This document shows, piece by piece, positions 21,757 to 26,414 of a stretch of DNA of 64,000 nt; positions within the stretch are counted from its first letter, which is position 1, and each line of letters starts with the position of its first letter. Origin of the DNA: Streptomyces sp. DT2A-34 (lineage in GTDB: Bacteria; Actinomycetota; Actinomycetes; Streptomycetales; Streptomycetaceae); contig NZ_JASTWJ010000001.1 of the NCBI RefSeq assembly GCF_030499515.1, forward strand, positions 1,054,001 through 1,118,000, in the 5' to 3' direction. Under the pieces are notes generated by a model. The model did no database searches. It had not been told where the DNA came from and saw only the letters and a list, made by a program, of their open reading frames with translations. A program made the position numbers and the translations under genes.

Positions 21757-21910
21757 TCGCCCCCGCCGCCCCTACCCGTCCCATCCCTGAAGGGGCGGAG
21801 CCCCTTCCACCCCGCCAGGGGGCGAAGCCGCCCCCTGGACCCCCGTCGGCCTGCACGGCCTCGTCTTCAAACGCCGGACGGGCTGAAGGACGCCGACCGG
21901 CGTTGAGAAG
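21757..21910 (+). repeat. Second copy of the intergenic repeat; stem-loops after ssgD
   Basis: Bases 21757-21782 are identical to 10041-10066. It is followed by hairpins of the same kinds (GGGGCGGAGCCCC; CCAGGGGGCGAAGCCGCCCC with its closing arm) and by an imperfect stem 21865-21910 built on AACGCCGG and CCGGCGTT. Unlike the first copy it has only one outer arm. It probably also terminates ssgD transcription. Confidence 0.65.
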
Positions 21911-21940
21911 TCGAGCATGCCCGGGCTCGCTTTAATTCCG

Positions 21941-21969
21941 TTGACAGGCCCTCGCCCCCCTCCTACCGT
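21941..21969 (+). promoter_or_regulatory. Vegetative promoter of the ABC-F gene
   Basis: TTGACA (21941-21946), 17 bases, TACCGT (21964-21969). The -35 is the full consensus and the spacing is ideal. Transcription would begin near 21976, leaving a leader of about 224 bases before the ABC-F start. Confidence 0.7.
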
Positions 21970-22006
21970 CTACAACGGTCCTGTTGCCGTCGATTGGAGA
22001 AGGACG

Positions 22007-22018
22007 TTGCTCGTCTGA
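22007..22018 (+). CDS. Three-codon leader peptide (M-L-V)
   Basis: GGAG (21996-21999) stands 7 bases before TTG CTC GTC TGA. This tiny frame sits about 30 bases after the predicted transcription start and just before a chain of hairpins, which is the arrangement used in ribosome-mediated attenuation of antibiotic-responsive ABC-F genes. Translation is inferred from the ribosome site only. Confidence 0.5.
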   Translation: MLV

Positions 22019-22032
22019 GGTCCTGAGACACC

Positions 22033-22058
22033 GCGCCACACCTGAGGTGTGTTTGCGC
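22033..22058 (+). promoter_or_regulatory. Leader hairpin, candidate pause/anti-terminator element
   Basis: GCGC plus CACACC (22033-22042) pairs with GGTGTG and GCGC (22046-22058) across TGA and a small bulge. An outer stem, GAGGTC (22017-22022) with GACCTC (22066-22071), starts inside the leader stop codon, so a ribosome on the leader peptide would block it. CGGC near 22072 can also pair with GCCG at 22081-22084, the foot of the terminator. Confidence 0.5.
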
Positions 22059-22080
22059 TGCGTGCGACCTCGGCGTTCGA

Positions 22081-22106
22081 GCCGTCCTCCGGAGCAGGGC
22101 TTTTCT
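22081..22106 (+). terminator. Intrinsic terminator in the ABC-F leader (attenuator)
   Basis: GCCGTCCTCC (22081-22090) pairs with GGAGCAGGGC (22091-22100) at 8 of 10 positions and is followed at once by TTTTCT. The U tract is unusual in this GC-rich genome and marks a real terminator about 95 bases before the ABC-F start. Confidence 0.65.
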
Positions 22107-22199
22107 CATGGCCCCGAACCCTCTGAGGCCTCCCCGTCGGTCGCCGGTGTCTCGATACGCGTTTGCCCTTGATCGCTTCGAGCATCCGCGGAGGCCCGT

Positions 22200-23825
22200 A
22201 TGTCTACTTCCCTCACCTGTACGTCCCTCTCCTTCACCTGGCCCGACGGCACCCCCGTCTTCGAGGGCCTCGACGTCGCGTTCGGCCCCGGCAGGACCGG
22301 ACTCGTCGGCGTCAACGGGTCAGGGAAATCAACCCTGTTGAAGCTCATCGCCGGTGAGCTCACCCCGGTCGACGGCGCCGTGCGCGTCGCCGGCGAGGTC
22401 GGCTACCTCCCGCAGAACGTCACCCTCGACACCGGCCTGAAGGTCGACGAGGCCCTCGGCATCGCGGACCGGCGAGCCGCGCTGCACGCCATCGAGGCCG
22501 GTGACGTGGCCGAGGAGCACTTCGAGACCGTCGGCGACGACTGGGACGTGGAGGAGCGCGCTCTTGCCACGCTCGGCGAACTCGGGCTCGGCCACGTCGA
22601 GTTGGACCGCACGATCGGCGAGGTGTCGGGCGGCGAGTCGGTGCTGCTGCGGCTGGCCGCGCTGCTGCTGCGCCGCCCGGACGTCCTGCTGCTCGACGAG
22701 CCCACCAACAACCTCGACCTGTACGCACGCAGGCGGCTGTACGCGGCCGTCGCCGCCTGGCCGGGGGTGATGGTGGTGGTCAGCCACGACCGCGAACTCC
22801 TGGACCTCGTCGACCAGATCGCCGATCTGCGCTCCGGGGAGGTCACCTGGTACGGCGGCAACTACTCGGCGTACGAGGAGGCCCTCGCCACCGAGCAGGA
22901 GGCGGCCGAGCGGATGGTGCGGGTCGCCGAGGCCGACCTGAAGAAGCAGAAGCGTGAACTGGTCGACGCCCAGGTCAAGTTGGCCCGGCGCAAGCGGTAC
23001 GGGCAGAAGATGTGGGACCAGAAGCGGGAGCCGAAGATCGTCATGGGGGCGCGCAAGCGGGCGGCACAGGAGTCCGCCGGCAAGCACCGCGTCATGCACG
23101 AGGAGAAGCTCGCCGAGGCCAAGGAGCGGCTCGACGAGGCGGTGGACGCCGTACGGGACGACGACGAGATCCGCGTCGACCTGCCGTACACGGCCGTACC
23201 GCCGGGGCGGACCGTCCTCACGCTCCTGGACCTGGAGTTGGCGTACGGCGCGCGCGTGAACGGCGGCTTCGATCTGCGTGGCCCTGAGCGGATCGCGCTG
23301 ATCGGGCGCAACGGCGCGGGCAAGACGACGCTGCTGCGGACGATCGCCGGGGAGCTGGAACCGGTGTCGGGTGCGGCGACGGCACATGTTCCGCTCCGCC
23401 TCCTGCCGCAGCGGCTCGACGTGCTCGACGGCGAGCTGTCGGTCGCCGAGAACGTGGCCCGGTTCGCGCCGGGCGCCACCAACAACCGGGTCCGGGCACG
23501 CCTTGCCCGCTTCCTGTTCCGGGGAGCCCGCGCCGACCAGAAGGCGGCGACGCTGTCCGGCGGTGAGCGCTTCCGGGCCGCGCTGGCCGCGCTGATGCTG
23601 GCCGAGCCCGCACCGCAGCTGCTGATGCTGGACGAGCCGACGAACAACCTGGACATGGCGAGCGTACGGCAGCTCACCACGGCCCTGGAGTCGTACGAGG
23701 GGGCGCTGATCGTGGCCAGTCACGACCTGCCGTTCCTGGAGTCGATCGGCATCACGCGCTGGCTGATGGTGGAGGACGGAGAGCTGAAAGAAATCACGCC
23801 AGAGGCTGTCGGGTATCTCGCCTAG
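22200..23825 (+). CDS. ABC-F family ATPase (ribosome protection / translation factor type)
   Basis: A 541-residue soluble protein with two ABC domains and no membrane segments. Domain 1 (about 1-230): Walker A GVNGSGKST (Lys43), signature VSGGE, Walker B LLLDEPTNNLD. A charged linker follows (about 235-330; KKQKRELVDAQVKLARRKRY). Domain 2: GRNGAGKTT, LSGGERFR and MLDEPTNNLD. ABC-F proteins act on the ribosomal E site and either resolve stalls or displace antibiotics. The attenuator leader argues for a drug- or stall-responsive resistance role. ATG 22200 has CGGAGG upstream. Confidence 0.9.
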   Translation: MSTSLTCTSLSFTWPDGTPVFEGLDVAFGPGRTGLVGVNGSGKSTLLKLIAGELTPVDGAVRVAGEVGYLPQNVTLDTGLKVDEALGIADRRAALHAIEAGDVAEEHFETVGDDWDVEERALATLGELGLGHVELDRTIGEVSGGESVLLRLAALLLRRPDVLLLDEPTNNLDLYARRRLYAAVAAWPGVMVVVSHDRELLDLVDQIADLRSGEVTWYGGNYSAYEEALATEQEAAERMVRVAEADLKKQKRELVDAQVKLARRKRYGQKMWDQKREPKIVMGARKRAAQESAGKHRVMHEEKLAEAKERLDEAVDAVRDDDEIRVDLPYTAVPPGRTVLTLLDLELAYGARVNGGFDLRGPERIALIGRNGAGKTTLLRTIAGELEPVSGAATAHVPLRLLPQRLDVLDGELSVAENVARFAPGATNNRVRARLARFLFRGARADQKAATLSGGERFRAALAALMLAEPAPQLLMLDEPTNNLDMASVRQLTTALESYEGALIVASHDLPFLESIGITRWLMVEDGELKEITPEAVGYLA

Positions 23826-23835
23826 CTTCGGCTTC

Positions 23836-24346
23836 GTGGCCGATTTCACGCACGGATTCGCGCACGGATTCGCGCACGGATTCATCACCATCACGGGAGC
23901 CCGGGAGAACAATCTCAAAGACGTCTCCCTCCGCATCCCGAAAGGCCGGCTGACCGTGTTCACCGGCCTTTCGGGATCAGGGAAGTCGTCGATCGTCTTC
24001 GACACGATCGCGGTCGAGTCGCAGCACCGGCTGAACGAGACCTTCACGTGGTTCGTGCGCAACGACCGTGGGGCGGGAGTGGCCCCGGCACGGCACGCCG
24101 AGCGCCGGACCGGCGACCGCCTACTCCTTCAACGACCCCTCCGGGATGTGCCCCGAGTGCGACGGCCTGGTGGCGGTGGTCGTCGAGCACAACCTGGACG
24201 TGGTGGCCCACGCCGACCGGATCATCGACCTGGGGCCGGACGGGGGCAGGGACGGGGGCAGGGTGATCTTCGAAGGAGCCCCACGACAGCTCCTCGACGC
24301 CCCCGGCTCCTTCACCGCGGAGCATCTCAGGAGGGCCACAGCCTGA
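23836..24346 (+). pseudogene. Truncated UvrA-like ATPase gene (drug-resistance UvrA paralogue)
   Basis: Pieces of a UvrA paralogue can be read in order. The first, in frame from GTG 23836, is GARENNLKDVSLRIPKGRLT with Walker A TGLSGSGKSS, ending at NETFTWFVRN. Then, in another frame, comes RHGTPSAGPATAYSFNDPSG with the zinc-finger CPECDGL, joined directly to VVVEHNLDVVAHADRIIDLG of the last domain. About three quarters of the protein is missing, including the signature and Walker B segments. A 12-bp sequence is repeated three times near the start (23849-23884, encoding HGFA). Not expected to work. Confidence 0.75.
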
Positions 24347-24445
24347 CCCGGAGGGTTTTGTACGGGCGGGTAGCACCTGCATGATGGCGGGTCGGTGCCC
24401 CATGCAGCATGGCGCCGACACCTGCCACCGACCCGGAGATCCCTC

Positions 24446-25439: not shown

Positions 25440-26414
25440 GTGACGATCGCTTCCCCTCACCTTGGCAGCCCCGCCGTCTGGACCGACGCCCGCCTGCTGT
25501 ACGCGTTGGAGGAAGTGGTCGAGAAGGAACTCAACCGCCATCTGCAGGTCGCCAAGGACTGGATGCCGCACGAGTACGTGCCGTGGACGGACGGCCGCAA
25601 CTTCCCCGGCCTCTTCGAGGACGGGGAGGCCTGGGACAAGGAGCAGTCCAAGGTCACCGAGATCGGCCGCATCGCCCTCGTCGTCAACCTCCTCACCGAG
25701 GACAACCTCCCCAGCTACCACCACGAGATCGCCTCGCTCTTCGGCCGTGACGGCGCCTGGGGCACGTGGGTGCACCGCTGGACGGCGGAGGAGGGGCGGC
25801 ACGGCATCGTGATGCGCGACTATCTGCTCACCTCGCGCGCGGTTGACCCGGACAAGCTGGAGCAGTTCCGCATGTCCCACATGAGCGAGGGCTTCGAGTC
25901 GGACAACCGGCACTCGATGCTGCACTCCATCGCCTACGTCGCCTTCCAGGAGCTCGCGACGCGCGTCTCGCACCGCAACACCGGCCACCAGTCCGGTGAC
26001 CCGATCTGTGACCGCATGCTGGCGCGCATCGCGACCGACGAGAACCTGCACATGGTCTTCTACCGGAACCTGCTGAAGGCCGCGTTCGAACTCGCCCCCG
26101 ACCTCACGATGCAGGCGGTGCGGGACGTGCTCGTCAACTTCCGCATGCCCGGCCACGGCATCCCCGGCTTCGAGCGCGCCGCCGCGCAGATGGCCATCGG
26201 CGAGGTCTACAACCTGCGCATCCACCACGACGACGTCCTCCAGCCCGTCCTCCGCTTCCTGAAGATCATGGAGATCGACGGCCTCGGCCCGGAGGGCCAG
26301 AAGGCCCAGGAGGAGCTGGGCCTGTTCATGGGCGGCCTGGACGCGGAGGCCCTGAAGTTCGACGAGAAGCTGGCAGCCCGAAAGGCCCGGATGGCGACTC
26401 GGGCTGCGGGCTGA
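25440..26414 (+). CDS. Acyl-ACP (stearoyl-ACP type) desaturase
   Basis: A 324-residue soluble di-iron desaturase that puts a double bond into acyl chains. Metal ligands: Glu in LLTEDNLPSYHHEI, ExxH in TAEEGRHGIVMRD, and DENLHMVFYRNL. No membrane helices, unlike DesA3-type enzymes. GTG 25440 follows GGAG at 5-base distance; the upstream ATG has no ribosome site. The stacked operators upstream suggest tight control by a lipid- or alkane-responsive TetR protein not encoded in this window. Confidence 0.9.
   Translation: MTIASPHLGSPAVWTDARLLYALEEVVEKELNRHLQVAKDWMPHEYVPWTDGRNFPGLFEDGEAWDKEQSKVTEIGRIALVVNLLTEDNLPSYHHEIASLFGRDGAWGTWVHRWTAEEGRHGIVMRDYLLTSRAVDPDKLEQFRMSHMSEGFESDNRHSMLHSIAYVAFQELATRVSHRNTGHQSGDPICDRMLARIATDENLHMVFYRNLLKAAFELAPDLTMQAVRDVLVNFRMPGHGIPGFERAAAQMAIGEVYNLRIHHDDVLQPVLRFLKIMEIDGLGPEGQKAQEELGLFMGGLDAEALKFDEKLAARKARMATRAAG

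Follow-up and report, generated by a model that had tools for sequence, protein, structure and literature searches.

The three-codon leader frame of a Streptomyces ABC-F gene, a probable ribosome-mediated attenuator of the are5sc type

How might a reading frame of three codons, placed between a promoter and an ABC-F gene, control that gene? The question is raised by a locus of Streptomyces sp. DT2A-34 contained in a stretch of 64,000 nucleotides (the window), for which an earlier note had proposed a complete transcription-attenuation leader. Our answer is that the leader is very probably a ribosome-mediated attenuator of the are5sc type. The analysis supports the note's main proposal, attenuation through an MLV frame, a mechanism shown experimentally for are5sc of S. 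coelicolor (PMC12421871).

The ABC-F gene (22200..23825; all features of the locus are on the + strand) encodes 541 amino acids, and appears to be of the are5sc type by its leader and neighbourhood. The letters and an alignment of relatives place its promoter at 21941..21969 (TTGACA, 17 nt, TACCGT; the -35 is preceded by TTTAATT). The 'consensus promoter' of the earlier note holds for the -35, a perfect TTGACA, but not for the -10, since TACCGT matches TATAAT at 3 of 6 positions. A promoter scan gave no hit above its threshold, and TTGACA and TA...T are conserved in an alignment of 78 leaders. Promoters of the WblC regulon have an AT-rich stretch next to a -35 of the TTG type, on its upstream side, and TTTAATT-CCG-TTGACA ahead of the ABC-F gene is a candidate for this motif. 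A terminator-like hairpin (21912-21929), which may terminate the upstream SsgA-family gene, ends immediately ahead of this stretch and its -35.

A ribosome site with a three-codon frame had been described, and both are readily read and conserved: a Shine-Dalgarno site, GGAGAAGG (21996..22003), is followed by TTG CTC GTC TGA (MLV, 22007..22018). This frame is the counterpart of are5scL1, and an overlapping frame CTG AGG TCC TGA (LRS, 22015..22026) that of the predicted are5scL2 (PMC12421871). Folding pairs segment A (21977..21989), at the predicted 5' end, with A' (22090..22101); together, A:A' and B:B' complete a long hairpin, and are mostly kept among close leaders. Inside it, arm C, CUGAGGUC (22015..22022), overlaps the leader stop codon, and its pairing with C', GACCUCGG (22066..22073), starts one base before that codon. 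The proposal of nested hairpins with an outer stem at the leader stop codon thus stands for this stem, but had left out a crossing and covarying helix, D:D'. Arm D, UGAGACACCG (22024..22033), lies just past the leader stop, and D', CGGUGUCUCG (22145..22154), some 45 bases ahead of where the ABC-F gene starts; both come from a helix search and covariation. A small inner hairpin, CACACC-UGA-GGUGUG (22037..22051), is predicted between D and C'. The GC hairpin with its U tract is listed by the terminator scan, as had been claimed: GUCCU/AGGGC (22084-22100) is followed by TTTTCT, the whole covering 22084..22106 with UUUUCU as U tract. A' shares bases with the 3' arm of this terminator, and the local terminator stem also shares bases with B'. 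Hairpin E, CGCGUUUGC ... GCAUCCGCG (22158..22190), read from letters and folding, has as its last base the first one of the ABC-F Shine-Dalgarno site (22190..22194), and the gene starts after the leader as expected, with the ATG at 22200.

To what extent is the leader frame conserved? The gene has homologues in much of the genus, with matches at E 1e-150 or better in 145 of the 150 genomes sampled, weaker matches including paralogues and tiaA-type genes. A protein search gave 577 related loci, of which the best 80, all titled Streptomyces, were kept as a close set, making 81 close leaders with the window; a diverged set holds 60 leaders of homologues with 62-80% identity, hand-picked from the matches listed and not random. 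Among these best 80 of 577, the MLV frame is found in 77, at 152-237 bases before the aligned start, and the three others carry MLI (L053), MFV (L059) and MLL (L063). With a search pattern that required TTG, a TTG-started frame is present in 60/60 diverged leaders, with three codons in 56 and four in 4, and a UUG-started frame stands at the same place in 140/140 homologous loci. All 141 leaders, window included, read TTG, then two (137) or three (4) sense codons, then TGA. The peptide itself varies in the diverged set: MLV in 28 of the 60, MRI in 17, MLF in 4, MLHI in 4, MLI in 2, and MRY, MLL, MQI, MFI and MRR in one each. A homologue from another genus of the same family (L161, 69% identity) has MLV together with D and D'. 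In the genome of the strain itself, the 25-nt string of Shine-Dalgarno site and frame occurs once, its reversed control 0 times (at most 3 mismatches allowed).

Start codon and frame length are therefore kept while residues drift, a pattern that would fit stalling at the start codon. We do not favour peptide-specific stalling, since residues 2 and 3 drift among homologues. The proposal of an MLV frame with an attenuating role is supported, but the residues matter little (MRI, MLF, MLI and MRR are all found).

By all indirect evidence, namely the leader, the SsgA-family neighbour and the leaders of outgroups, the window gene would be the orthologue of are5sc (SCO6720). The protein has two ABC domains and no membrane part (two Pfam ABC_tran stretches), and its closest solved chains are ABC-F proteins. 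Curated models for ribosomal protection score below their cut-offs (341.1 bits against 380 for NF000355, and 225.9 against 800 for the TlrC/CarA/OleB model), which weakens automatic naming, not the leader-based assignment. An SsgA-family gene lies directly upstream. In the next family out, at 52-55% identity, 15 of 16 loci have tiaA-type leaders (L164 is the miss), with frames such as MLGDDDISG and MVVDDDISG, which places the window gene with are5sc and not with tiaA. The strain's own genome contains no match at the tiaA level (52-55%), the next best ones being at 40% and 36%.

Some other features of the neighbourhood were recorded. Some 28 kb upstream, and just outside the window, is another ABC-F-like gene with 40% identity to this one (G000:C1:1046776-1048362). 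Directly downstream of the ABC-F gene (23836-24384) is the start of a broken gene with GARENNL and GLSGSGKSS stretches, by which we take it to be a UvrA-like ATPase. At that place, an open frame of at least 700 aa with these stretches is found in 27 of the 80 relatives, and the stretches were unseen in the other 53 within the flank examined. At gathering cut-offs, the only Rfam family in the window is ASdes (25791-25858, - strand, 52.4 bits against a cut-off of 40), which lies in a fatty acid desaturase gene in antisense orientation. For the leader, no known RNA family was found at E 1 or better.

Two helices of the leader, C:C' and D:D', both covary and cross each other. As D lies between C and C' while D' is outside, they are either mutually exclusive or form a pseudoknot. 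C:C' is present in 81/81 close leaders, and in the diverged ones at 7 bp in 45/60 and at 6 bp in 6 more, some of both by chance. In the alignment of 141 leaders it is 97% paired, with double changes at 2 of 8 pairs (4 cells; 0/500 shuffles as high). The longest helix between the D and D' regions reaches at least 9 bp in 77/81 close and 35/60 diverged leaders, compared with 9% and 12%, respectively, of dinucleotide shuffles. D:D' pairs in 92% of cells of the same alignment, falling to 29-50% when the partner is slid, and has double changes at 8 of 10 pairs in 79 cells (0/500 shuffles as high), counts which overstate independent events, as the shuffles keep no account of relatedness. When 11 short and 15 MRI-type leaders are removed, 5 of 10 pairs and 11 cells remain, again with 0/500 shuffles as high. 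Within the 81 close leaders there are 0 double-change cells for D:D', which is nearly invariant there (96%) and too conserved to inform. Counted from the first T of TTG, D begins after 16-22 bases in 104 leaders out of the 129 in which the longest helix has at least 8 bp. The leader frame might also pair with hairpin E (GUUGCUCG/CGAGCAAC), but this pairing was dropped, MRI paralogues lacking it; these have at E's place a hairpin of other sequence.

Folding the leader gives a modest signal (21976-22106: -58.1 kcal/mol, z -2.1, 7/200 shuffles as good), and it is conservation that constitutes the strong evidence. Ribosome footprints were assumed at 21992-22022 for the start codon and 21998-22028 for the stop codon. 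In the full-length RNA, D:D' has a predicted probability of 0.75 in the free state, 0.86 when a ribosome occupies the start and 0.01 when it occupies the stop; for hairpin E the three values are 0.90, 0.97 and 0.39. In these folds D:D' hence distinguishes a drug-stalled ribosome from one that has finished translation normally. In RNA of terminator length, A:A' has probability 1.0 and the terminator 0.0 in the free, start-masked and stop-masked states alike, the terminator hairpin reaching 0.85 only when the 5' end and the Shine-Dalgarno site are masked. Terminator and anti-terminator hairpins can both be drawn, and masking start or stop does not flip the terminator: of the two alternative RNAs expected, the D:D' form switches between start and stop but the terminator does not.

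The terminator is also less widespread than the frame. A scan of 21850-22230 lists 2 sites against a shuffle mean of 0.3, and the hairpin can be placed in 70 of 81 close leaders, with a T fraction past the 3' arm of 0.51 compared with a background of 0.20. Under a rule of at least 5 T in 8 bases, terminator-like sites occur in 31/81 close leaders (10.3 in mononucleotide shuffles, 10 rounds), so that many close leaders have none, in 3/49 other diverged leaders (4.3), and in 0/11 short ones (0); under a 4 T rule the figures are 50/81 (36.7), 14/49 (17.3) and 0/11 (0.6). Since sites exceed shuffles among close leaders only, the U tract is a feature of the close group, and even in the alignment it is weak or missing in several relatives. 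The expected conserved terminator is thus seen as an enrichment in close relatives, but not above shuffles in diverged leaders. The 11 short leaders (L106, L107, L111-L115, L120, L123, L126 and L131), in which no terminator-like site was found, still have hairpin E and arm D as well as the TTG frame. As a separate observation, L118, L128 and L129 keep A:A' and B:B' with other letters and no clear U tract; the changed-letter pairings of L128 are GUGCCCUGCAG/CUGCAGGGCAC and AAGGUG/CACCUU.

The attenuator that we favour would operate as follows. The promoter would give a short leader RNA, on which, in the drug-free cell, a ribosome would start at UUG, read three codons and leave, most transcripts then ending at the GC hairpin ahead of the ABC-F gene. 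Lincosamides, streptogramin A and pleuromutilin stall the ribosome at the start codon of the are5sc leader and induce transcription (PMC12421871). By analogy, any of them would halt the ribosome at UUG here; covering the Shine-Dalgarno site and arm C, it would let the leader refold and polymerase read into the gene. Drug halt and read-through are thus shown for are5sc, and we infer them for the window locus. The frame would be a ruler, not a peptide sensor: with three codons, a start-stalled ribosome would not quite reach arm D, whereas a ribosome at the stop codon would cover it, and geometry, covariation and folding suggest that D:D' can signal which of these two positions is occupied. Counting for the are5sc type are the MLV and LRS frames, as in are5sc, and the SsgA-family gene upstream, as ssgD (SCO6722; PMC10771440) is near SCO6720. 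Counting against it are the terminator-length folding, where start and stop are not separated, the weak or missing U tract and the poor -10 box. A simple stalled-ribosome model is also at odds with lmrC, in which loss of the leader frame start makes expression constitutive instead of abolishing induction (PMC8546547).

A more tentative reading, about which we have more doubt than confidence, is that the conserved core is a ribosome-position switch and not the terminator, and that some lineages do without an intrinsic terminator. A start-stalled ribosome would mask C and free D, a stop-codon ribosome would mask D, and the ruler frame would read ribosome position almost independently of the peptide.

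What could such a switch act upon? A second, translational layer, in which D:D' and hairpin E gate the ABC-F ribosome site after read-through, is conceivable though somewhat unlikely. D' lies past the terminator, so D:D' can act on read-through RNA only; the last base of E falls in the ABC-F Shine-Dalgarno site, and the probability of E drops from the start-stalled to the stop-codon state as given above; the short leaders keep frame and D with no terminator-like site; and a differential response was seen with are5sc translational fusions (PMC12421871). However, predicted access to the ABC-F Shine-Dalgarno site stays flat over the 81 close leaders (means 0.135 in free RNA, 0.150 when start-stalled and 0.134 with the ribosome at the stop; more than 0.1 higher in 7, lower in 15), and does not rise in the 11 short leaders. 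In 5 of these 11 (L106, L112, L115, L126 and L131) access to the AUG is clearly up, but equally so with the ribosome at the stop codon. A translational switch through the main Shine-Dalgarno site has no support from folding. Two of the short leaders, L112 and L123, are folded with arm C paired to a GGCCUC that stands after the ABC-F Shine-Dalgarno site and ahead of the AUG.

It is unlikely that the long A/B/C:A'/B'/C' hairpin itself serves as terminator, so that an empty leader would terminate and a leader with a ribosome on its frame would not. In favour of this reading, the hairpin is the fold of minimum energy, the U tract directly follows its closing stem, and in L128, where a local hairpin is not evident, A:A' and B:B' persist in other letters. 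An intrinsic terminator stem with so large a loop would however be unusual. Furthermore, PMC12421871 puts the leader-frame ribosome sites in anti-terminator hairpins.

Finally, induction by WblC at the promoter alone, the leader being a passive untranslated region, is extremely improbable: are5sc is stated to belong to the WblC regulon, and an AT-rich stretch precedes the -35 here, but an are5sc transcriptional fusion with the leader is antibiotic-induced whereas a promoter-only fusion is constitutive (PMC12421871), and conservation of the leader goes far beyond what a passive region would show.

With this assignment, a Streptomyces locus that carried no label is linked to an antibiotic-sensing switch known from the literature, and the combination of a kept frame length, drifting residues and D:D' offers a cheap test of ribosome position against nascent peptide.

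Three known systems can be compared with this locus. The lmrC gene of Streptomyces lincolnensis would share ribosome-mediated attenuation, an ARE5 ABC-F product and the same drug classes, but belongs to the lincomycin cluster, and its active frame overlaps the terminator (PMC8546547). tiaA (SCO0636) likewise has a leader frame and alternative folds before an ARE5 ABC-F gene, but the frame has nine residues, MVGDDDISG (PMC12421871). The closest is are5sc, which is not tied to a biosynthetic cluster. Its leader has a TTG-started MLV frame with an overlapping MRS/LRS frame (are5scL2, predicted and reported not to be translated), and terminator and anti-terminator folds (PMC12421871). Both loci have these frames, an ABC-F product and an SsgA-family gene nearby, the two alternative folds can be drawn here too, and the 5' UTR of 232 bp in are5sc compares with about 220-230 here by the predicted promoter; the species differ. 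Our literature search found no other paper on the are5sc leader (the contents of PMC6637917, on SCO6720, were outside it). D:D', found here, goes unmentioned in the main text of PMC12421871, from which the words pseudoknot, long-range and covariation are absent, and its Fig. S4 might show it. The switch is thus of an already known, published kind, in a new species; what is added here is structural, namely the constancy of frame length, the crossing of C:C' and D:D', and a U tract confined to the close group.
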